A stretch of 64,000 nucleotides of DNA from positions 1 to 64,000 of IMG/VR virus record IMGVR_UViG_3300025413_001414. The stretch is one strand, 5' to 3'. This document shows, one piece after another, positions 10,763 to 62,104 of the stretch (its first letter is position 1; each line of letters starts with the position of its first letter). The position numbers and the translations under genes were made by a program. The notes below the pieces were generated by a model. That model was not told the DNA's origin. It did no database searches and saw nothing but the letters and a program-made list of their open reading frames with translations. The DNA is from a virus.

Positions 10763-11047
10763 TATTGAAAACCAAAGAAACACAGAAGTCTTTAGCTTCT
10801 GTGAATTTGGTAATTATTCACCAAATTCACTTAAAGGGAAGAGTCTATATTAAATATGTTAGGAAATTAAAAAAATTCTAGCATCGGCAGGGACTGTCGA
10901 TTACAGGCGTGGATCAAAAATAAGACCTGATTAGATAACTAATTAAAATTGGCACACTAACTGAAGGCAAAAGCAATGAAGCATCTAAAAAAGAAGAAGC
11001 TTGTCTCCCGAAACTTATCGGTCTTTATTAGAAATAAAAAGATAAGT
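10760..11047 (+). ncRNA. Structured RNA element, copy B
   Basis: Second copy of the element at 2308-2595. Helices: ACAGAAG/CTTCTGT with loop TCTTTAG (10782-10802); a perfect GTGAATTTGG/CCAAATTCAC (10801-10830); ATCGGCAG/CTGTCGAT (10883-10901); ATTAG/CTAAT near 10931; and ACTTATC/GATAAGT (11013-11047) with a new inner stem TTTATT/AATAAA. Length differences between copies are not multiples of three, so the conserved part is not coding. It follows the protease terminator directly and precedes the gene at 11090. The short frame MKHLKKKK (from 10977) is the same gene remnant as in copy A. Confidence 0.7.
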
Positions 11048-34712: not shown

Positions 34713-36440
34713 ATGCAAAACTATACATTTTTATATAATGATACAAAGTTAGACAAAAACAAACTAAAAGAGGATTGGATTAAGAAAAATGTCCCATCTT
34801 TATACAAAGATGTTATATCATTCTCAAACATGATAAACTTTGAGTATTCCAAATTTTCACAATTATTATATCATTATAAAATAAATAAGACTGAATTGCC
34901 AATATGTGACTATTGCAAAAAAGAAAATAAAAGATTTATTGGATTTGATTATGGATATAAACTAGGATGTAGTAGACATTGTGCAATTTTACTAACAAGA
35001 CCAAAGTCAAATGAAACTAGGAGATTGAACACATTAGAAAAATATGGAGTTGAACACACCACCCAACTAAATTCAGTTAAAGAAAAAATAAAAAAAACCA
35101 ACATTAAAAAGTATGGAGTAGAACATGCTTCACAGAATGAAAATATTAAAAATTCAATTAAAAAAACAAACAATATACGATATGGTACTGATTTGCCTCT
35201 TCAAAATTTACAAATTAAGAATAAAATGATTGATAACTTTATAGAAAAGTATGGTGTCAGTAACCCAATTTTACTAGATTCAGTCAAAAATAAAATTAAA
35301 AAAAATAATTTGAAAAAATATGGATGTGAATGGCACATATCTTCTGATATTATCAAACAAAAAATAAAAAATTCACAATATCTTCATAATTATAAAAATA
35401 TTGTTTCTAATTATGGTAAAATCGATGGATTAAATATAATATCATATGAAAATAATATAGTAAAATTTTATTGTGAAAAGTGTAACAATGAGTTTGAATC
35501 AAATTATGTACATCTTTATAATAGACATATCAGAGATAAATCTAATATTTGTACTATTTGCAATCCACTAAATAACAAAACATCTAATGGACAAAAAGAA
35601 ATTATAAATTTTTTAAAGGAACTAAGAATAAATATTACAGTAAATGATAGAAAAATAATAAATCCATACGAAATAGACATTTATCTAAAAGATTATAATT
35701 TAGGTATTGAGTTTAACGGCATATATTGGCACTCTGAAATAAACAAGGATAATGGCTACCATTATGATAAGTATAATAGATGCACACAAAAAGGTATTGG
35801 ACTAATTCAAATTTGGGAAGATGATTGGACATATAAAAAGGATATAATAAAGTCAGTGATAAAAAGTAGGATAAATAAGAATTCATCAATTGGTGCTAGA
35901 TTATGTATCATAAAAGTAGTTTCAAATGAAGATTCTAAAATTTTTCTAAATGAAAATCATATTCAGGGATGGTGTATTTCAAAATATAGATATGGATTAT
36001 ATTTTGAAAATAATCTAGTTAGTATATTAACAATTTCAAATAGTAGAAAAAATATTACTAAAAATGCAAAAATCGGAGAATATGAAATAGTTAGATTTTG
36101 TAATAAAATTGGAACAAATATCATTGGATCTTTATCAAAACTTTGGAAGTTTTTTGTAAATGAAATAAATCCGGTAAGAGTTATTTCATATTGTGATAAT
36201 GATCTATTTAGTGGTAAATCCTATTATAAAATAGGTATGAAATTAGATAGTATGTCATTTAATTATTGGTGGTGTGATGGTGATAAAAGACAAAATAGAT
36301 GGAATTTCAGAAAAGATAAATTAATAAGTGAAGGATATGATAGAGAAAAAACTGAATCAGAAATAATGATAGAAAGAGGATGGTATAAATGTTATGGATC
36401 TGGTAATAAAAAATTTATTTGGAATAAAGATAATATTTAA
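34713..36440 (+). CDS. KYGV-repeat homing endonuclease, paralogue 2
   Basis: A 575-residue protein with an N-terminal zinc-binding part (CDYCKKEN, later CSRHC), at least five KYGV-type repeats between about 105 and 215 (KYGVEHTTQL, KYGVEHASQN, RYGTDLPLQN, KYGVSNPIL), and the nuclease segment EIDIYLKDYN-LGIEFNGIYWHSE plus QIWEDDW. It sits between the MoxR and 36497 genes in opposite orientation, so it probably inserted in the gap. A TTTAATATATA box is upstream. Confidence 0.8.
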   Translation: MQNYTFLYNDTKLDKNKLKEDWIKKNVPSLYKDVISFSNMINFEYSKFSQLLYHYKINKTELPICDYCKKENKRFIGFDYGYKLGCSRHCAILLTRPKSNETRRLNTLEKYGVEHTTQLNSVKEKIKKTNIKKYGVEHASQNENIKNSIKKTNNIRYGTDLPLQNLQIKNKMIDNFIEKYGVSNPILLDSVKNKIKKNNLKKYGCEWHISSDIIKQKIKNSQYLHNYKNIVSNYGKIDGLNIISYENNIVKFYCEKCNNEFESNYVHLYNRHIRDKSNICTICNPLNNKTSNGQKEIINFLKELRINITVNDRKIINPYEIDIYLKDYNLGIEFNGIYWHSEINKDNGYHYDKYNRCTQKGIGLIQIWEDDWTYKKDIIKSVIKSRINKNSSIGARLCIIKVVSNEDSKIFLNENHIQGWCISKYRYGLYFENNLVSILTISNSRKNITKNAKIGEYEIVRFCNKIGTNIIGSLSKLWKFFVNEINPVRVISYCDNDLFSGKSYYKIGMKLDSMSFNYWWCDGDKRQNRWNFRKDKLISEGYDREKTESEIMIERGWYKCYGSGNKKFIWNKDNI

Positions 36441-37212: not shown

Positions 37213-37248
37213 GAAATGACATGCTAAATACACCATACCCTTCATTTC
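37213..37248 (-). ncRNA. Hairpin small-RNA unit 1
   Basis: The minus-strand RNA would have stem GAAATGA/TCATTTC around a conserved core (GGTATGGTGTATTTAGCATG). It is transcribed from promoter P2 and read into the leader of the 36497 gene unless processed. It is one of three copies of this hairpin; see 37356 and 37392. Confidence 0.65.
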
Positions 37249-37265
37249 TCTCGTTCTTTGTTACA

Positions 37266-37297
37266 CAAAGATACGACAAATTTCCGAAACCACCAAA
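37266..37297 (-). promoter_or_regulatory. Extended host-like promoter P2
   Basis: The minus strand reads TTTGGTGGTTTC (37286-37297), 12 bases, TATCTTTG (37266-37273). It would produce a transcript starting about 15 bases before hairpin unit 1. Confidence 0.85.
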
Positions 37298-37299
37298 TA

Positions 37300-37327
37300 A
37301 AAATTCCCCTCGTATAGAGAGGAATTC
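37300..37327 (-). terminator. Terminator of the two-hairpin small RNA
   Basis: On the minus strand AATTCCTCTC pairs with GAGGGGAATT and is followed by a T-run. One pair is U-G only in this orientation, which supports minus-strand use. Confidence 0.75.
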
Positions 37328-37429
37328 TTATACCAAAACAAACAGTTATGAGACTAAAGTGACGTGCCAGATACACTATACCTTTCACTTTGTAAATGAC
37401 GTGCCAGATACACTATACCTTTCATTTAC
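37300..37429 (-). ncRNA. Small RNA gene with two tandem hairpin units
   Basis: From promoter P3 the expected start falls at the first base of hairpin unit 3 (37392-37429, stem GTAAATGA/TCATTTAC). Unit 2 (37356-37391, stem AAAGTGA/TCACTTT) follows at once, and the terminator 37300-37327 ends the transcript, giving an RNA of about 130 nt. The core GGTATAGTGTATCTGGCACG is identical in both units, while the stems differ by compensated changes. No protein frame is plausible. I know no RNA family with this core. Confidence 0.75.
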
Positions 37430-41967: not shown

Positions 41968-43143
41968 TCATATAATTTCTTTAAATTTTTCAATTTCTAA
42001 TCTCTTTATTTCCTTACCTAATTCAGCACCTTTGAATCCTTGTTTCATTAACTCTTCAGCTGAAACAGATGGTTTGTATTTTATAAAAGCCAAATGAGTT
42101 GCATCATTTATTTGATTTATTTTATACCAATCTAAGATAACTTCATCACTAACTCTCGCAACTGTTCTCTTTTTATACATTTCTGTAACATCATCTACTT
42201 TAAAATCTAAAAGAGATATCAAGAAAACTATCCTTCTAGCCATATCCACTTCAATTTTACAATCTTGAACTAACTTATCTAATATATTTTTGTTTTCTTT
42301 TAACAAATTAGCTAAGTAAACTTCTAAATATTTAGAATCTCTGATATCAGTATTGATTTTAAAGCCAGGTAGAATTTCTTCCCATAATCCGAATTTAGTC
42401 AATAGATTTAAATATTCTGAAAAATCTTTGGCTTGTTTGAAAGCTTTTTTAAGCTCATCCCAAATTCTCTCTTGTGATACATCATCTTTTGGACTTATAC
42501 CTCTTAATCTATTATCTTTTCTTATGGCTTGATCCGTTTTAGAATCAATCTTACCACCAGTTCTTGTGGCAAACCTCAAAATTCTAAGGATTCTTAGACG
42601 ATCTTCTATAAATCTCTTATTAGCATCACCTACTGCTCTAACTATACCATTTTTTATATCATCAACACCACCAACTAAATCAACTATCTGTTTGTTTTTA
42701 ATGTCATAGAATAGAGCATTCATAGTCAGGTCTCTTCTATTACAATCATCTTCAATAGTTACATCACCACCTACTTCAACTTTTTTTTCATCGCCTTTCG
42801 TATCTCTACCACCAGAAATATCCCTTCTATAAGAAGCAATTTCATAACCGCCTGGTTCATCTTTTGTATAGACTCTTAATACACCAAAATTTTTACCTTG
42901 TTCATCAGAAATATTGAATTCTTTTAATATTTCTTTTGATTCATTAGGAAGAGCATTTGTTACCAAATCATAATCTTTTGGTTCTATACCTTGTATGAAA
43001 TCTCTAACTGCACCACCGACTAAAAAGATGTCTTTACCTGCTTTAATATAAGCATTTGATATGTCTATAATATCATTTGGTAGAGGAATTTCTGTTGAGA
43101 TTTTATTCTCATTTATAAATTGTCTATATCTTTTAATTTTCAT
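41968..43143 (-). CDS. tRNA nucleotidyltransferase (CCA-adding / poly(A) polymerase family) with N-terminal tag
   Basis: A 391-residue protein. The class II nucleotidyltransferase motif FLVGGAVRD (40-48) is followed by PKDYDL (Asp57/Asp59) and [10 protein letters not shown]. The RNA-binding helices contain [13 protein letters not shown]. It adds or repairs the CCA end of tRNAs. The first residues [13 protein letters not shown] match the recurring tag with an IxE site, unusual for a housekeeping enzyme and suggestive of packaging. A truncated second copy is at 43625. Confidence 0.9.
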
Positions 43144-43611
43144 TTTGGTTCATTTTTTTCTTTCTTTCTATCCAAGCAAGTTTCATTTTTAACTTGTGTT
43201 CTTCTGATTTTGGTTTACCTTTTCTTATCTCTGATAGCTTCTTTTTTGTTTCTTCGAATAACTTTTTACCTTTTTTTGATTGAGATAATTTCATTTTTGC
43301 TTCTTCTTACATAGGAATTCCCTTATTCCAAGATTTTGTTCCTTTTTTAGTTTTGGAAATTTTGTCTTTTGTGTTGTTTGAGTGCTTCTTACCATAAAAA
43401 CTATTTTTTTACCTAACTTTGATTCTGATTTCTTTTTCCTAGTATCTTCTGGTTCTATCCTACCTGTCAATGCTTTAGATATTTTACTTTTTGTTTCTTC
43501 TGAAAGAGTGTCGACATATTTTGGATGATTTTGTCCTGCAGATGTTGATCCTATGTAGAATTTAGGTAATTTATCACCACTATAAGTAACTAAGTATGTA
43601 ACATATTTCAT
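43134..43611 (-). pseudogene. Broken GIY-YIG endonuclease
   Basis: The 106-residue opening frame (43291-43611) has YVTYLVTYSGDKLPKFYIGST at the start, as in GIY-YIG enzymes, but the core is missing and NUMOD3-like DNA-binding units follow at once (LSEETKSKISKALTGR). Further NUMOD3 units continue in another frame (about 43134-43296: [19 protein letters not shown]). Deletion and frameshift have inactivated it. It lies between a complete and a truncated CCA-adding enzyme gene. Confidence 0.75.
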
Positions 43612-43624
43612 ATGTAAATATAAA

Positions 43625-43870
43625 TTAAAATTTTAATATATATAAATTAATTAGTTCTAAAACTTCATCTGGAGTAGCATCAGTGCATAAGTCAAAATCC
43701 TTTGGTCTCTCATTATTTAGAAAGTCTCTAACCGCACCACCTACTACAAACAATTTTTTATGATGTTGTTTGAACAATTGATGTAAATCTTTAACAGATT
43801 GTGTAATAATATTCCACATATCACTTTTACTTTCTAAAAATTCATTGTATTTAGTATTATCATCTTGCAA
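43625..43870 (-). pseudogene. N-terminal fragment of a second CCA-adding enzyme
   Basis: The 81-residue frame contains [20 protein letters not shown] and DLCTDATPDEVLEL, colinear with residues 40-75 of the complete enzyme at 41968 but clearly diverged. The protein stops after the first motif block, right where the GIY-YIG remnant begins. It was probably interrupted by that insertion and then lost its 3' part. Confidence 0.8.
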
Positions 43871-44217: not shown

Positions 44218-44565
44218 ATGGAACTTTTAACTAAATCTGGTGGTTCAGTTGAGCTTGTTGTAAGTAAATCGAGTTTAATTGGAACGAGATTAATATTAAA
44301 TATAGACCAAAGTGCTAACATCAAAAATGGTGAAGGTGAGGCAGCAATTGCTTTAACCTCGGATGAATGTAAAGAATTGATAGCTGGTCTAAATGAATTT
44401 ATTAGATTATTAGAAGGTCAGGATTACGTGCTTACTGCAAAAAGTGTAGTTGATTTAATAGCTCAACCTGAAGTACAAGAAGTTATGAAAAAGTTAGAAG
44501 ATGAAGGTAAGATTAAAAAATTAGAAATAAAAGAAGTACCATTAAGCGCTAGATTAATGAGATAA
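44218..44565 (+). CDS. Hypothetical protein (115 aa)
   Basis: A soluble alpha/beta protein (GGSVELVVSKSSLIGTRLIL, then ALTSDECKELIAGLNEFIRLLE). It is codirectional with the tagged gene before it and convergent with the gene at 44569. No family recognised. Confidence 0.65.
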   Translation: MELLTKSGGSVELVVSKSSLIGTRLILNIDQSANIKNGEGEAAIALTSDECKELIAGLNEFIRLLEGQDYVLTAKSVVDLIAQPEVQEVMKKLEDEGKIKKLEIKEVPLSARLMR

Positions 44566-44568
44566 CTG

Positions 44569-45261
44569 TTAAATTAATATTTTTTCAATCTTTTCATTCC
44601 TTAACTCAGCCATATCTATATCCCAATCACGTAAATAAGAGTGAGGTAGATGATCCCTAAATGATGGTATGAGTTTAGTCCAACGCTCATCTAAAGATGA
44701 ATATTCAAATCTTGCATTAAAGATAAATGAATGATATGGTATCTCAAAATCTTTATAAAAATCATCTAAGAAATTAACAAACTCTTCCAATATTTTTTGT
44801 TCTGAATCATAGTTTTCATTTTCATCATCAACCAATCCCAATTGACTATTTGGAGTATAAAAAGTTACTTCATCACGAACATCATCTAAGACATGTGAAT
44901 TACCAAAAGGTCTTTTATAACACATCATAATTGCATTATCTTTATAATCATCAAAGTCAAGGTATAAAAAACGAAGTAATCCCATATGATAATCCTTGAT
45001 ATTATGTTTATCTAAAGTGGATTGAGAGGGTTTACCTATCATACTAATGAACTGCATGCAAACAAATAAACGAGAGAGTTCTTCTATGTCTTTAATATGC
45101 GGATTATCTGATAGCTTCCAAACAAGTTGAGGACTATAATAGCTTGATTCTGATTTGCTAGAGACCAAACTATTTATCTTCTCAATATCACTATCTGTAA
45201 TAGAGAATTTTTGGTCTTTGACCAGTCCGTAATTTCCGTAAAAATAAGCTGAATTATACAT
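44569..45261 (-). CDS. Hypothetical protein with shared C-terminal motif (230 aa)
   Basis: An aromatic and acidic soluble protein without known motifs. Its last residues MAELRNEKIEKILI are the best example of the recurring C-terminal helix. The structured RNA at 45273-45470 ends 12 bases before its ATG, so the RNA could be either an independent transcript or a leader that controls this gene. Confidence 0.65.
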   Translation of the reverse strand: MYNSAYFYGNYGLVKDQKFSITDSDIEKINSLVSSKSESSYYSPQLVWKLSDNPHIKDIEELSRLFVCMQFISMIGKPSQSTLDKHNIKDYHMGLLRFLYLDFDDYKDNAIMMCYKRPFGNSHVLDDVRDEVTFYTPNSQLGLVDDENENYDSEQKILEEFVNFLDDFYKDFEIPYHSFIFNARFEYSSLDERWTKLIPSFRDHLPHSYLRDWDIDMAELRNEKIEKILI

Positions 45262-45272
45262 AAATTTTATTT

Positions 45273-45470
45273 AAAAACAACAGCCCCGTTACGGTAGTAA
45301 TCAGAGGTCCGGTCTTGTCGAAAGATAATTAGTCTTCCCCAGGTTAACCTGACTAAATCTGTTTAGACATCAGTGTAACGACTGACCAAAGTGAGTTTCA
45401 CTACCTACAAAGCTTTAAAACGGAGTATGAATCCCGTTGCATCATTGTTGTCCTACAGATAACTGTTGTT
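45273..45470 (-). ncRNA. Unclassified structured RNA with its own promoter
   Basis: About 200 nt of markedly less AT-rich sequence. The minus-strand RNA has three nested long-range helices: AACAACAG with CTGTTGTT (ends), CTCCGTT with AACGGGG, and GGTAGT with ACTACC. Local hairpins inside include AGTGA/TCACT, TCAGT/ACTGA and TTAGTC/GACTAA. A TATATTTG promoter box ends five bases upstream, and a T-run follows the closing helix. It is not a tRNA. I see no tmRNA, 6S or SRP signature. Confidence 0.65.
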
Positions 45471-45474
45471 ATCA

Positions 45475-45482
45475 CAAATATA
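45475..45482 (-). promoter_or_regulatory. Host-like -7 box for the structured RNA
   Basis: The minus strand reads TATATTTG immediately before the predicted RNA start. Upstream TTTCATTTAATTTTG supplies a T-rich -33 side. Confidence 0.55.
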
Positions 45483-45499
45483 CAAAATTAAATGAAATA

Positions 45500-45529
45500 A
45501 AAAAATAGGAACCGAAGTTCCTATTTTTT
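45500..45529 (-). terminator. Rho-independent terminator of the VWA gene
   Basis: Stem AATAGGAAC/GTTCCTATT with a CGAA/TTCG loop and T7 on the minus strand. Confidence 0.88.
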
Positions 45530-47048
45530 ACTTATCATCATTTTCCAAAACAATCTGTTTTACTTTACCATTTGAACGAGCGATTGGAACTTTAGTACCA
45601 ACAGATATCATCAAGACATTACCTTTAACTTTTGACAAATCAAGTGAGTCAGTATAACCATCTGTTAACAGAATTGTTGCGTATTGGTTGAAGTGTTCTA
45701 CTACATAGTCAAATCCAGTTTGCATTATTGTACCTCCAAGTCCGCGAATTGGAACTTTATCCAATCCTTTCTTATTCTTGATATTTTTAACCCATTTGAT
45801 TTCAGTATCACTTTCAATCAAATTGATTTCAATATCGTTACGATATACATAAGAAAGAACTCTTTCAAAAGTGCCAGATCCACCCATACTTCCTGATGTA
45901 TCAAGAATAACGTTAATCTTTGTTTTAATCTTACGGTTACCTTTCAAACCAGGCACTTGACGACGATTAGGTTTAACAATAGTCTTTTGTTTTTTAGTAC
46001 CAAAGATTTCATTAGCGATTGAACGCTTGATATGTTTCAAATAATCTTTCCTTTTCTTACGAAGCTTATTCAAAGTCTGTTCGATGTTTCCTACTTGAAG
46101 GCCACGAGCCTGTAATCTTTCCATCACATCTTTTACCATAGACTCTCTCATTTCCTCCGGAATTTCATCACCCATGTGGACGTCCATGTATTGACCTTGA
46201 GTATTCTCCATGTTGTCAAAGATTTGATCCAATGACCAAGTATCAATAGTTCCTTTGTCATTTTTCGGATCTTTACCATAAGGGCCATAAGAAGATTTAC
46301 CTTGAGAATCTTTACCATCTTGACCACCACTTCCACCACAATCTGGACAAGGTTCGCCTTTACCATGTTGATGACCTTGACCATTTTGATTCTGACCATT
46401 CTGATCTTGTTGACCATCTTGACCACTCTGACCTTGACCATCTTGTGGCTGAGCTTCACCTTGATCTTGTTGAGGTTGACCTTGTTGATTCTTTTGACCC
46501 TCTTGTTTTTGACCAGTACCGTTACAAGTCTTACACTGGCCGTTTTTCTTTTGTTTCTTTTTGTGCTCGTCTTGTTTATCACGAAGCCACTCATAAACTT
46601 CTTCAAAGATTAATTTACCAGTATATTCTTTAGGAATAAACAAAGCCATGTTCTTACCATTTTCATCCTTAGGAATTTCAATGAAAGAATTTGGAATATC
46701 TTCCCAGATGATATGATTGATAATCATATCTTGAGCGATATTAGAAAGTTGATGGTCGTATTGACCAGTAATAGTACGTTTAGGGTGATTCCACAAAAGG
46801 TGGAAATCTTCGTGTAGAGTAATGAAGTTAACCTCTTTTTGAGACATCTTCTCCAAGAACTCTGAATTGTAATAGAATTGCATACCCTTTGCAGTCATAT
46901 TTACACCACAAGTAGGTACTGCTTTATTATTTTCGTGGAAGTTAATGAAAAGATTGAACGTTCCATAATATGGTAGGTTCACTTTTGTATCAATCAACAT
47001 AATCTGTATAGATTCCATTAATTTCTCGTGAATGTTCTTTAATTGCAT
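45528..47048 (-). CDS. VWA-domain protein with metallopeptidase-like N-terminus
   Basis: A 506-residue protein of the DUF2201 type. An HEDFH (79-83) HExxH motif lies in a peptidase-like domain, then a Q/G/D-rich low-complexity region (about 165-270) that includes two CxxCxGxG units (CKTCNGTG, CPDCGGSG). A C-terminal VWA domain has the MIDAS motif DTSGSMG. VWA proteins of this type pair with MoxR ATPases; the one at 33310 shares its codon use and promoter class. Together they may remodel or insert metal into a target complex. TATCTTTG lies upstream. Confidence 0.85.
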   Translation of the reverse strand: MQLKNIHEKLMESIQIMLIDTKVNLPYYGTFNLFINFHENNKAVPTCGVNMTAKGMQFYYNSEFLEKMSQKEVNFITLHEDFHLLWNHPKRTITGQYDHQLSNIAQDMIINHIIWEDIPNSFIEIPKDENGKNMALFIPKEYTGKLIFEEVYEWLRDKQDEHKKKQKKNGQCKTCNGTGQKQEGQKNQQGQPQQDQGEAQPQDGQGQSGQDGQQDQNGQNQNGQGHQHGKGEPCPDCGGSGGQDGKDSQGKSSYGPYGKDPKNDKGTIDTWSLDQIFDNMENTQGQYMDVHMGDEIPEEMRESMVKDVMERLQARGLQVGNIEQTLNKLRKKRKDYLKHIKRSIANEIFGTKKQKTIVKPNRRQVPGLKGNRKIKTKINVILDTSGSMGGSGTFERVLSYVYRNDIEINLIESDTEIKWVKNIKNKKGLDKVPIRGLGGTIMQTGFDYVVEHFNQYATILLTDGYTDSLDLSKVKGNVLMISVGTKVPIARSNGKVKQIVLENDDK

Positions 47049-47071
47049 ACGGTATATATTATTTATTTATA

Positions 47072-47103
47072 CAAAGATACAAAATATTTATGAAACTAAA
47101 AAA
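47072..47103 (-). promoter_or_regulatory. Extended host-like promoter of the VWA gene
   Basis: TATCTTTG (47072-47079) with GTTTC at the same distance as in the promoters at 37266 and 49408. It is 24 bases before the ATG. Confidence 0.7.
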
Positions 47104-47180
47104 TATTTTACTTAAAAGTCAACTTTACATATTAGGGATAATGTAATTATCCATATATAGATATAAACAAAGTTAATAAA

Positions 47181-49016
47181 ATGGTATTAGATAAAAAAAT
47201 AAAAGTTAAAATAAACAAAAAAAATATTTCACATTATATTCAATTTTATCCATCAATAAAATTAAAGGATATTATTGAGGTTGATGTTGAGAATCATTTA
47301 ATGAAAGGAAGTAATCAAAAAATAAACGTCCAATGTGATATCTGTGGAATTGCTAGGTTTATAAATTTCCAATCATATAATATTAATTTAAATTCTTGCC
47401 CGGAATATCCAATTTATACTTGTGATAAATGTTCTCATATTAAAATAAAAGAGTATAATAAGAAAAAATATGGCGTAGAATATTATTCAAAAACTAAGGA
47501 ATATTCAGAAAAGTTTAAGAGTACAATGATTGAAAAATATGGAGTAGAATATGCTTTACAAAGTGATGAATTAAAAAAAAGGCAAATAAATAATAATTTA
47601 GAAAAATATGGTAAAAAAAATGTTTTTCAAGTTGATAAAATTAAAGATAAAATTAAAGAGTATAATAAGGAGAAATATGGTGTAGAACATTATTCAAAAA
47701 CTAAGGAATATTCAGAAAAGTTTAAGAACATAATGATTGAAAAACATGGGGTTGAAAGTCCACTTCAAGGTGGGAGTGTCTCAAGAGAAAAGGCTAAAAA
47801 TACGATGTTAAATAAATATGGAGTTGATGTATATGCAAAAAGTAGTGAATTTTTAGAAAAGGTTAAAATAACCAATATGAAAAAATATGGAGTTGAGTGG
47901 ATAATGAAATCAGATATTTTTAAAGACAAAAGCAAAAAATCTATTAAAAATAGATATGGTGTTGATAATATAGCTAAATACGAGAAGCATAGAAAGGATT
48001 TTAAAATATCTAACGATCCAAATTATATAAAATATGTAAACGAAGGCATATCGCTATTAAAATGTAACAAAGGACATGAATTTGAGATACCATCACATAT
48101 CTATTATAATAGAAGTAAATATAAAATAAATTTATGTACAATGTGTAATCCAGTTGGCGAAAGTTCATCTATAAAGGAAAACGAACTATTTGATTTTATA
48201 TGCAATAACTATAGAGGAGAAATAATAAATTCATATAGGGATAAAAAGGAAATTGATATTTATTTACCAGAATTAAAATTAGGATTTGAATTTAATGGAT
48301 TATTCTGGCATTCAGAATTATATAAGGAAAAAAACTATCACTTAGATAAAACAATTTTATTTAAGGACAAAGGTATAAGCTTATTTCATGTATGGGAGGA
48401 TGATTGGATGTATAAACAGGATATAGTTAAATCGATGATTTTAAACAAATTAGGTGAAACTCCTAGTAGAATATTTGCTAGAAAATGTGAAATTAAAGAA
48501 GTTACTGATAGTAAATTAGTTAGATATTTCCTAAATAAAAATCATATTCAAGGATTTGTTGGATCAAAAATAAAATTAGGGTTATATTATAATGACGAAT
48601 TAGTTAGCTTAATGACATTCGGTAATTTACGAAGATCTTTAGGCCAAAAAAGCAGTGAAGGATCATATGAATTATTAAGATTCTGCAACAAATTAAATAC
48701 CAATGTTATTGGTGGTGCTTCTAAATTACTCAAATATTTTTTAAAATTTAATAATGTCAGGGAAATTATTAGTTATAGTGATTTAAGTAGATCTAATGGT
48801 AATATGTATCAACAATTAGGATTTAAATTACAACATAATTCTAATCCTAATTATTATTACATTATTGGTGGTATTAGAAAACATAGATTTGGATTTAGAA
48901 AAGATGAATTAGTTAAGGATGGATTTGATCCGAATAAAACTGAAATTCAAATAATGAATGAAAGAGGTTATTATAGGATTTTTGATTGTGGAATGCAAAA
49001 ATGGGTATTAAATTAG
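47181..49016 (+). CDS. KYGV-repeat homing endonuclease, paralogue 3
   Basis: A 611-residue protein with N-terminal zinc ligands (CDICGIARF, CDKCSH), about eight KYGV units between 95 and 275 (KKYGVEYYSKT, EKYGVEYALQS, EKYGKKNVFQV), then the nuclease signature EIDIYLPELK-LGFEFNGLFWHSE and HVWEDDW. Two repeat blocks (EYSEKFK, KYGVE-YYSKTK) are nearly identical within the protein, showing recent internal duplication. It fills the gap between divergently placed minus-strand operons. Confidence 0.8.
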   Translation: MVLDKKIKVKINKKNISHYIQFYPSIKLKDIIEVDVENHLMKGSNQKINVQCDICGIARFINFQSYNINLNSCPEYPIYTCDKCSHIKIKEYNKKKYGVEYYSKTKEYSEKFKSTMIEKYGVEYALQSDELKKRQINNNLEKYGKKNVFQVDKIKDKIKEYNKEKYGVEHYSKTKEYSEKFKNIMIEKHGVESPLQGGSVSREKAKNTMLNKYGVDVYAKSSEFLEKVKITNMKKYGVEWIMKSDIFKDKSKKSIKNRYGVDNIAKYEKHRKDFKISNDPNYIKYVNEGISLLKCNKGHEFEIPSHIYYNRSKYKINLCTMCNPVGESSSIKENELFDFICNNYRGEIINSYRDKKEIDIYLPELKLGFEFNGLFWHSELYKEKNYHLDKTILFKDKGISLFHVWEDDWMYKQDIVKSMILNKLGETPSRIFARKCEIKEVTDSKLVRYFLNKNHIQGFVGSKIKLGLYYNDELVSLMTFGNLRRSLGQKSSEGSYELLRFCNKLNTNVIGGASKLLKYFLKFNNVREIISYSDLSRSNGNMYQQLGFKLQHNSNPNYYYIIGGIRKHRFGFRKDELVKDGFDPNKTEIQIMNERGYYRIFDCGMQKWVLN

Positions 49017-54095: not shown

Positions 54096-54471
54096 AGTCA
54101 GCTATTGGTATTTCTTTAGCCAAATCAGACCTGGTTTTTTTAGGTTTAGGCTTATAAACCATATTTAAGGCACTATATTTTATATCTTCATTTTGAACCA
54201 CTTTACTTGATTTTAAAATATCTTGTAGTATTTTAGGATCCGGATTTTTATGAAGATACAAGGCTATATCTAATATCATATTTTGAGTATCCTTATGTCG
54301 TATTTTATCAATCTCATATCCATATTTATTAGAAAGATAGGTTACGAATCCATATGGCAAAGTATTATTACCTGATTCTATATTCTGAATAATAAGTCTA
54401 TGATAGTCTATATTCATCACCAATTCTCTTGGGACTACTATAGACAAATCTTTTTGTATAAGTTCCATCAT
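54088..54471 (-). CDS. Hypothetical protein (127 aa)
   Basis: A helical protein (PRELVMNIDYHRLIIQNIES, TQNMILDIALYLHK) with a basic C-terminus. It starts 17 bases after the RNase P-like RNA, so it is probably the first protein gene after the RNA on the same transcript. No family recognised. Confidence 0.65.
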   Translation of the reverse strand: MMELIQKDLSIVVPRELVMNIDYHRLIIQNIESGNNTLPYGFVTYLSNKYGYEIDKIRHKDTQNMILDIALYLHKNPDPKILQDILKSSKVVQNEDIKYSALNMVYKPKPKKTRSDLAKEIPIADFE

Positions 54472-54488
54472 ATTTTATATTTAATATT

Positions 54489-54711
54489 ATAGTGACGATT
54501 ATACCCGCGGTTCTGTTTTATTCTATCATTTATCTCACCTTTCGGTGGCCTATTAAGGCTGCCTCAACCCGACTATCGTTGGGAAACCGACACCCTAAGT
54601 CTGTATGAGTTGCTACTTCTTTGGTCTAACGACTGATTAGGTCTTCCAAATTAGGTTTTGTAGCCGCGAAGTTCCTCTAGCATTTGCCAGCGATAGATCA
54701 TCCATCACTAT
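54489..54711 (-). ncRNA. rnpB: Compact RNase P RNA (catalytic RNA of RNase P)
   Basis: The minus-strand RNA of 223 nt is closed by a 10-bp P1 starting ATAGTGA and ending TCACTAT. GAGGAAC then TTCGCGG corresponds to conserved region I (bacterial GAGGAAAGTCCGGG). Near the 3' end AGATAAATGAT and then ACAGAACCGCGG corresponds to the bacterial AGATGAATGA ... ACAGAACCCGG. The partner bases covary: bacterial CCGGG/CCCGG is replaced by CGCGG/CCGCG. CACCGAAAGGTG forms a GNRA hairpin in the P18 position. The specificity half is much shorter than usual (whole RNA about 220 instead of 350-400 nt). It should process tRNA 5' ends with host or phage protein. Confidence 0.82.
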
Positions 54712-55175
54712 GTTAATATTTCTAAATTCAATTCTCTTTTAAACTTTTGTTTATACTCACCAATAAATTCCTCTAAAAGTGGGTGAATATGTGGATATAT
54801 TTCTTCACGAATATTATCAACATCACCAATATACTCTTTGAATAATTTTAAAATTCTATTAGGTGTATTTGGTATAATATTAATTAAACATAAATAGTTT
54901 AAAACCCTTTCTTTTTTAGGATCTAATTTTTTACCACTTTTATTCCATGTGTCCATCCATTCCAATTTTAAAGACATTGCTTTAAAATCAGTAACAACTA
55001 CACTCTGCCACCAATCAGAAAATTCATTATCCCTAATCACTGGATCAAATCCAATCATCTTGGTATATTTTTCCCATATATAATCAATATTGGATCGTAA
55101 GACATATGTATCATTACAAGCCTTATGAAACATTATTGAAAATGTTAATAAGTTATCTACCTGGTCATTATTCAT
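54708..55175 (-). CDS. Hypothetical protein (155 aa)
   Basis: A soluble helical protein with a basic C-terminus (EYKQKFKRELNLEILT). Its stop overlaps the first bases of the RNase P-like RNA, so both are probably on one transcript driven by the TATATTTG box at 55180-55187, just before the ATG. No family recognised. Confidence 0.65.
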   Translation of the reverse strand: MNNDQVDNLLTFSIMFHKACNDTYVLRSNIDYIWEKYTKMIGFDPVIRDNEFSDWWQSVVVTDFKAMSLKLEWMDTWNKSGKKLDPKKERVLNYLCLINIIPNTPNRILKLFKEYIGDVDNIREEIYPHIHPLLEEFIGEYKQKFKRELNLEILT

Positions 55176-60274: not shown

Positions 60275-62104
60275 ATGATAGTAAATGAAAAAATAAGTAT
60301 AAATGTTAATCCAAATTCTAGAATTTATTACAATTCGATTGGATATAGATGTTCTAATTTTGAGAAAATAGAAATTAGAACAATTGATCTACCAAATGGG
60401 TCTAATATTAAAATATTGGTCAGGTGTGATGTTTGTTTTATTGATCAAACAACTAAGTACAATAAATACTTGAAAAACACAAGGAATAATACTATTCTAT
60501 ACACCTGCAAAAAATGTTCTTTTATAAAAAATAAAAAAACAAAATTAGAAAAATACGGAAATGAAAATTATCAGAATACAGAAAAAATAAAGAAGACAAA
60601 ATTAGAAAAATACGGAGACGAAAACTATACAAATAGAATAAAAGCGAAAAATACATGTATAGAAAAATATGGAGTTGATAATGTATCAAAGTTTGATGAT
60701 ATAAAGTTAACTAAAAAGAAAACAAATATTGATAATTGGGGAGTTGATAATGTTTTTAAATCTGAAGAAATTAAGAGTAAAATATCAGAATCGGTTAGAA
60801 TTAAATATGGATCAGATAATTATGTTACATCAGATGATTGTAAAAATAAGTATAAAATATTCTGTGAGGAATTAGGTGTTAGTCATTATTCACAGTCTAA
60901 AGAATTTAAAGATAAATTTGAGGAAACATGTTTAGTAAGCTGGGGATATAAGACGAATTTATTAAATAATGATATAAAAAATAAGATAAAGGAGACCAAT
61001 CTTATAAAGTATGGATTTGAGTATCATATGAAAAATGCAAAATATTCAGAATTAACATCAAAAAGAATAACAGAGGGCAGAAATGATTATTATAAAGTAT
61101 TAGGATATGAATTGATAAATTATGATTTTAATAAAAAGGAATATCTACTTAAAAGTATTTCATGTGGTCATGAATTTAAAATAAATCATGATTTATTTAG
61201 AAGTAGGATAAAATATAACAACAGTTCTTGTTTGATATGCTATCCAAAAGATGGGTTAACATCAATAAAAGAATTAGAGCTTGGTAACTTTATTAAAGAA
61301 ATATCAAATAATATTATATTAAACTCAAGAGACTTGATTGATGGTAAGGAAATAGATATTTATTTACCAGATCATAAGATAGGAATAGAATTTAATGGAT
61401 TATACTGGCATTCGGATGAATTTAAAGATAAATATTATCATTATAATAAAACAAAATCCTGTTTAGAAAATGGAATATCCTTAATTCATATATGGGAGGA
61501 TGACTGGTTAAATAAAAAAGATATAGTTAAATCAATAATTAAAAACAGATTAGGAATAATTGATAATAGAATATATGCCAGAAAATGTAAAATTGAAATT
61601 GTTACAAACTCAATTAGTAATAAGTTTTTAGACGAAAATCACATTCAAGGTGGGACAAATGCTTCTGTTTGTATTTCATTAAAATATGAAAATGAAATAG
61701 TATCTATAATGACATTTGGTAAAAGAAGAATAAACTCTAAATTGAACCTGGAACTTGTTAGATTTTGTAATAAGAAAAATACATCAGTCATCGGATCGGC
61801 TTCTAAATTATTCAAACACTTTATTGAAAATAACGAATACGATAAAATAACATCATATTCAGATTTGTCCATTTTTAATGGAGATTTATATGAAAGTCTT
61901 GGATTCAAAAATGACGGCGAAACATCTTTAAATTACTATTGGAGCGATTTAAAAAGAAGATATCATAGATTTAATTTTAACAAAAAGAGACTAATAAAAA
62001 TAGGATATGATCCAAATAAGACCGAAGATGAAATTATGAAGAGCATTGGATATATTAAAATATGGTCTTGTGGTCAGGTAAGGTGGATTTTTAATAAGAT
62101 ATAA
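60275..62104 (+). CDS. KYGV-repeat homing endonuclease, paralogue 4
   Basis: A 609-residue protein with zinc ligands near the N-terminus (RCDVCF, CKKCSF), seven repeat units from about 90 to 260 (LEKYGNENYQN, IEKYGVDNVSK, NWGVDNVFKS), and the nuclease segment EIDIYLPDHK-IGIEFNGLYWHSD followed by HIWEDDW. It lies between the two topoisomerase subunit genes, a classic site for mobile elements in T4-like phages. A TTTAATATATATA box is just upstream. Confidence 0.8.
   Translation: MIVNEKISINVNPNSRIYYNSIGYRCSNFEKIEIRTIDLPNGSNIKILVRCDVCFIDQTTKYNKYLKNTRNNTILYTCKKCSFIKNKKTKLEKYGNENYQNTEKIKKTKLEKYGDENYTNRIKAKNTCIEKYGVDNVSKFDDIKLTKKKTNIDNWGVDNVFKSEEIKSKISESVRIKYGSDNYVTSDDCKNKYKIFCEELGVSHYSQSKEFKDKFEETCLVSWGYKTNLLNNDIKNKIKETNLIKYGFEYHMKNAKYSELTSKRITEGRNDYYKVLGYELINYDFNKKEYLLKSISCGHEFKINHDLFRSRIKYNNSSCLICYPKDGLTSIKELELGNFIKEISNNIILNSRDLIDGKEIDIYLPDHKIGIEFNGLYWHSDEFKDKYYHYNKTKSCLENGISLIHIWEDDWLNKKDIVKSIIKNRLGIIDNRIYARKCKIEIVTNSISNKFLDENHIQGGTNASVCISLKYENEIVSIMTFGKRRINSKLNLELVRFCNKKNTSVIGSASKLFKHFIENNEYDKITSYSDLSIFNGDLYESLGFKNDGETSLNYYWSDLKRRYHRFNFNKKRLIKIGYDPNKTEDEIMKSIGYIKIWSCGQVRWIFNKI

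Follow-up and report, generated by a model that had tools for sequence, protein, structure and literature searches.

A putative promoter-linked, folded RNA as a possible lineage-specific 5' leader of a hypothetical phage gene

The non-coding stretch that runs from position 45470 to position 45262 on the minus strand of the window (the whole 64,000 nucleotides of DNA analyzed here, part of a 78,698-base, or 78.7-kb, IMG/VR record) separates a VWA-type gene and its terminator from a gene encoding a 230-aa protein (44569-45261, minus strand). We tentatively read this stretch, which is characterized by a predicted fold, a raised GC content, and the lack of a long open reading frame (ORF), as a structured 5' leader that belongs to the 230-aa gene and is specific to one lineage, and we put the probability of this reading at about 40%. 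Overall, it is a real sequence feature and plausibly an orphan leader RNA without conservation. A preliminary description of positions 45273-45470 had left the choice between a free RNA and a long leader of the gene at 44569; of the two, the leader is favored and the free RNA less so, because a promoter motif lies upstream and neither a terminator nor a second strict promoter motif was found between the RNA and the gene. Therefore, a single transcript that begins with a folded leader of 209 nt (45262-45470) is the simplest reading. The TATATTTG promoter would direct host-type RNA polymerase to start near 45470; the first ∼209 nt copied would adopt a branched fold, closed near the start codon, and transcription would continue through the 230-aa gene, for which no other promoter was recognized. 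The RNA would then most likely act in cis, setting the stability or translation of this one message. Should it prove real, it would be a regulatory RNA specific to phages and outside any family, in very large phages with little-known RNA biology; as it is, it represents one orphan sequence with moderate folding evidence and is mainly a candidate for transcript mapping.

The promoter box TATATTTG, at 45475-45482 on the minus strand, matches the −7 box found in sigma-A type promoters of Bacteroidota. It had previously been placed at the 5' end of the RNA, and it is indeed present there, just upstream of 45273-45470 and not inside it. Because the −7 box of Flavobacterium sigma-A promoters spans −12 to −5 (PMC6847099, PMC9723704), the same placement of TATATTTG predicts a start at 45470, which is the first base of an 8-bp helix (AACAACAG) proposed earlier, a coincidence that counts in favor of the leader reading. 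A strict motif, T[CT]GTAnnTTTGT[AG], was derived from the list of TAnnTTTG sites in the window and occurs seven times, compared with 0.45 expected from 20 Markov-1 sequences (largest count, 2), a test that is partly circular because the target site was already in that list. All seven sites are non-coding and on the minus strand; the other six stand 2-131 nt from an ORF start and the target 211 nt. From its sequence, a promoter upstream of the RNA is therefore credible; if the RNA is real, this would agree with these huge phages relying on the sigma-A type of host promoter. When the plus strand was considered as the RNA strand, the fold was weaker, and no TAnnTTTG box lay just before the 5' end among the sites listed, so that the minus strand is preferred. 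Elsewhere in the window, two strict-motif sites (37180 and 37276) have an upstream GGTGGTTTC element in common, and three copies of a 34-nt unit (37214-37427, minus strand) lie close to TATCTTTG promoter boxes; the ends of this unit can pair as AAATGA/TCATTT in two copies and as AAGTGA/TCACTT in one, a compensatory change.

On the upstream side, the sole terminator found in a search of 44400-47300 is a hairpin at 45500-45529 (minus strand) that belongs to the VWA/DUF2201 gene (45528-47048, minus strand) and is predicted to isolate the RNA from upstream transcription. The nearest named relatives of the VWA/DUF2201 gene are in uncultured phage records of 634-735 kb ("huge phages"), and further relatives are in 34 IMG/VR records, several of which look like near-duplicate pairs with identical coordinates and gaps. 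An HNH/homing-endonuclease-like gene (47181-49016) adjoins the VWA gene; similar DNA is found in ORFs at 34713-36440 and 60275-62104, and the VWA gene in three of the related loci (L002, L003, and L004) is flanked by ORFs resembling this endonuclease-like gene.

The stretch is GC-richer than its surroundings, as had been claimed: positions 45273-45470 have 40.9% GC, compared with 27.7% in the window and 26.8% (sd 5.0) in 7,508 non-coding 198-nt windows, where non-coding was defined by ORFs of at least 100 aa. Just three non-coding stretches reach at least 38% GC, namely the target, 2414-2638, which holds one copy of a two-copy element, and 54453-54726, which holds an RNase P-like RNA. Inside 45262-45470, no same-strand ORF exceeds 24 aa. 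A 14-codon ATG frame, MMQRDSYSVLKLCR (45401-45445, minus strand), lies inside the 24-aa GTG frame, traverses the predicted elements P1a and P2 into P3, and could encode a leader peptide, frames of such sizes being common by chance. The two-copy element itself is non-coding, ∼280 nt long, and on the plus strand (2310-2600 and 10765-11030), with blocks that are 89-98% identical and with GC-richer, hairpin-forming parts; a search of its first copy gave no convincing Rfam match.

With its 5' end at 45470, the RNA has a minimum-energy fold of −53.6 kcal/mol that comprises, in order, a small 5' hairpin, helix P1, hairpin P1a, P2, P3, a 7 by 7 internal loop, P4, and a branched tip, all on the minus strand. 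P1, the preferred closing helix, pairs AGGACAAC (45447-45454) with GUUGUUUU (45274-45281) at a predicted probability of ∼0.67-0.89 over most of the helix. The pair probabilities are 0.80-0.99 for P1a (AACGGG...UCCGUU, 45419-45438), ∼0.95 over most of P2 (AGCUUUGU, 45407-45414, with ACGGGGCU, 45282-45289), and 0.92-1.00 for P3 (GGUAGUGA, 45398-45405, with UUACUACC, 45293-45300). Positions 45308-45390 hold P4 (UUUGGUC/GACCGGA, 0.68-0.78) and a branched apical part with three small hairpins, in which a CAGG/CCUG hairpin has a probability of 0.63. The last helix stops ∼12 nt short of the start codon. If the 5' end is moved to 45476, a 6-bp hairpin GAUAAC/GUUAUC (probability 0.87) replaces the small 5' hairpin, and this hairpin would form given a start 3 nt before 45470.

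The preliminary description had the RNA closed by three nested helices of 8, 7, and 6 bp, which we took to be AACAACAG/CUGUUGUU, CUCCGUU/AACGGGG, and GGUAGU/ACUACC, respectively. The complementary stretches exist, and the 6-bp helix, which is contained in P3, is strongly predicted (pair probability ∼1.0 with the 5' end at 45470), but the 8-bp and 7-bp helices are not preferred (0.04-0.10 and 0.00, respectively). Their 3' strands prefer AGGACAAC and AGCUUUGU instead, and forcing all three helices yields −48.8 kcal/mol compared with −53.6 kcal/mol for the unconstrained fold. Thus, AACAACAG (45463-45470), the first 8 nt of the predicted transcript, is a minority partner of CUGUUGUU (45276-45283), most of which also pairs with AGGACAAC. 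Because the 3' strand of the last helix has two competing 5' partners, a switch is permitted, and one may speculate that AACAACAG and AGGACAAC compete for this strand next to the start codon. We consider it improbable that the RNA is a new class of switchable structured leader, confined to a single lineage of huge phages, whose two 5' copies of an ACAAC element compete for this 3' strand and thereby set the expression of one phage gene.

The predicted folding stability appears modestly beyond chance. Compared with 1000 dinucleotide shuffles (mean −44.4, sd 4.0 kcal/mol), the target has a z-score of −2.28, with 16 shuffles as stable, and a separate run gave −2.26 (2/200 as stable). Two features count against the leader reading here: stability is just modestly unusual, and the opposite strand is similar, with a z-score of −2.07. 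The start of the gene speaks in the same direction, the base at −3 being T; in F. johnsoniae, A at −3 promotes initiation, as stated in PMC6847099. On the supporting side, a 209-nt leader would be unusual because Flavobacterium leaders are typically 24-33 nt long, the figures being a median of 24 and a mean of 65 nt in F. psychrophilum (PMC9723704) and an average of 33 nt in F. johnsoniae (PMC6847099). PMC9723704 describes structured 5' UTRs and cis-regulatory leaders in Bacteroidota that are alike in having a sigma-A −7 box and a long folded leader before one gene; in contrast, the RNA here is without a known ligand class or conservation and precedes a phage gene of unknown function.

The adjoining gene had been called hypothetical, and this description holds: the 230-aa protein has no family in Pfam or PHROGs and no relative in the PDB (one chance match, E 0.39), and an AlphaFold2 single-sequence model, with a mean pLDDT of 34, was of no use. 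IMG/VR pattern scans with the gene returned nothing, and homologues were found in 3 of 38 related records (LR745206, G012, and G026), all from huge phages. The sequence upstream of these homologues contains an ORF 30 nt away, an overlapping ORF, or a 41-codon ORF read by eye, and a structured leader precedes none of the three; the association of RNA and gene is thus not conserved, and the 230-aa gene does not need the leader because its homologues are found without it. Farther downstream (41968-43870, minus strand), a complete CCA-adding/poly(A) polymerase gene follows a fragment of a second such gene; of the two small ORFs that separate them, one looks GIY-YIG-like by eye.

The occurrence of gene homologues without the RNA also means that the RNA has no fixed link to the gene, which is one of the points in favor of a free small RNA of ∼200 nt that acts in trans, starts at 45470, and has its 3' end set at the U-run by weak termination or processing, the gene being served by read-through. 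The U-run reported at the 3' end is there, as a run of five U at about 45272-45276 (minus strand) after the last helix, and the RNA forms a discrete GC-rich domain whose first 8 nt are complementary to the last 8 nt before the U-run. A Watson-Crick helix of at least 8 bp between the first 12 and the last 25 nt arose in 24 of 5000 shuffles, a statistic that was picked post hoc. However, this end-to-end helix is a minority fold, no intrinsic terminator was recognized at the U-run, so that the 3' end lacks the terminator hairpin with U-tract that would mark a free small RNA, and no homologue was detected anywhere searched. We therefore regard a trans-acting free RNA as doubtful, if the strongest of the alternatives to the leader.

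Relatives of the RNA were sought in several ways. By blastn, the target was present in 0 of 38 related records (one 15-nt chance match, E 0.03), compared with 9 of 38 (one marginal, at E 0.006) for the RNase P-like RNA, used as a control; blastn in phages, plasmids, and 3 related records likewise revealed no relative. R1, a covariance model built from the single sequence, matched the window alone among 36 records and, in five phage records, produced no match below E 0.8; one R1 match (E 0.8) was in LR756502; matches by R1 or blastn were otherwise scattered and weak, at E 0.03 or worse. Exact 16-18-mer patterns, which detect only near relatives, gave 1, 16, 0, and 0 matches in four scans of IMG/VR and 1 match, in a Dietzia contig, in genome_contigs. 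The locus from the single-match IMG/VR scan (L044) shares just 18 nt with the RNA, the 16 matches lie mostly inside open frames and look unrelated, and R1 matched none of 17 pattern-scan loci. Further, in none of 39 related loci does the space after the VWA gene exceed 163 nt, and the RNA is therefore absent from the syntenic place. On these sequence comparisons, the RNA seems specific to its lineage. Because no homologue was found, there is no sign of selection, which counts against a leader.

These absences speak for a neutral or recently acquired GC-richer insertion between promoter and gene, with incidental folding. In addition to the missing relatives and the syntenic gaps, such an insertion is suggested by the fold, which has a z-score of −2.0 relative to GC-matched windows, does not rank among the 15 windows with the greatest excess stability in a 200-nt scan, and, as noted above, is nearly matched by the opposite strand. 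Conversely, a strong promoter motif stands right at the 5' edge of the stretch, its ends are complementary to each other, and, all its frames being short, it is not an obvious piece of a gene. On balance, a neutral insertion appears unlikely to us, and we retain the structured leader as the preferred reading.

The RNA had also been said not to fit tRNA, tmRNA, 6S, or SRP RNA, and a comparison with all of Rfam had been proposed. Consistent with that statement, no known class was matched: Rfam (4227 families) gave no match at or above the gathering threshold in the window and, with just the stretch as query, no match at E 10, and ARAGORN found no tRNA or tmRNA gene. Weak Rfam matches to FtrA, BTnc060, and sraA are on the plus strand, run into the terminator of the upstream gene, and score far below threshold. 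Type III toxin-antitoxin RNAs consist of tandem short repeats that precede a toxin gene, and no tandem repeats were found; likewise, the layout of an IscB-type guide RNA was set aside, the 230-aa gene showing no nuclease family. The silence of Rfam is weak evidence because Rfam also failed, at E 5, to detect the RNase P-like RNA elsewhere in the window, two homologues of which do match; even so, it is highly improbable that the RNA belongs to a known class (6S, tmRNA, RNase P RNA, or a riboswitch) and has diverged too far for the Rfam models, the stretch lacking RNase P motifs by eye and any homologue that would bridge it to a family. Literature searches found no description of this RNA. ROOL and GOLLD, ornate phage RNAs (PMC12286853), are alike in being phage-encoded, folded, non-coding RNAs of unknown function but are much larger, form conserved classes, and are often near tRNA islands, whereas the RNA here has no Rfam match and there is no tRNA in the window.

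The RNase P-like RNA (54490-54712, minus strand) is ∼220 nt long and has homologues, detected by blastn, in related huge phages. It resembles the candidate leader in being GC-rich, non-coding, ∼200 nt long, and on the same strand; unlike the leader RNA, it is conserved among relatives and akin to a known ribozyme. A search of eight loci showed that two homologues (L079 and L077) match the Rfam archaeal RNase P model at E 1.4e-8 and 9.7e-7, with scores of 40.7 and 34.8 bits, both below the gathering threshold of 84. An alignment of nine sequences keeps GAG-AA, AGATA-ATG, and ACAGAA-like blocks, which we take to be hallmarks of RNase P, and 54490-54712 is possibly a phage-encoded minimal RNase P RNA. 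No paper on phage RNase P RNA was found in the literature by title or abstract; PMC8172020 reports that CPR bacteria have diverged RNase P RNA and, in a separate context, that a megaphage carries 74 tRNAs and a tmRNA.
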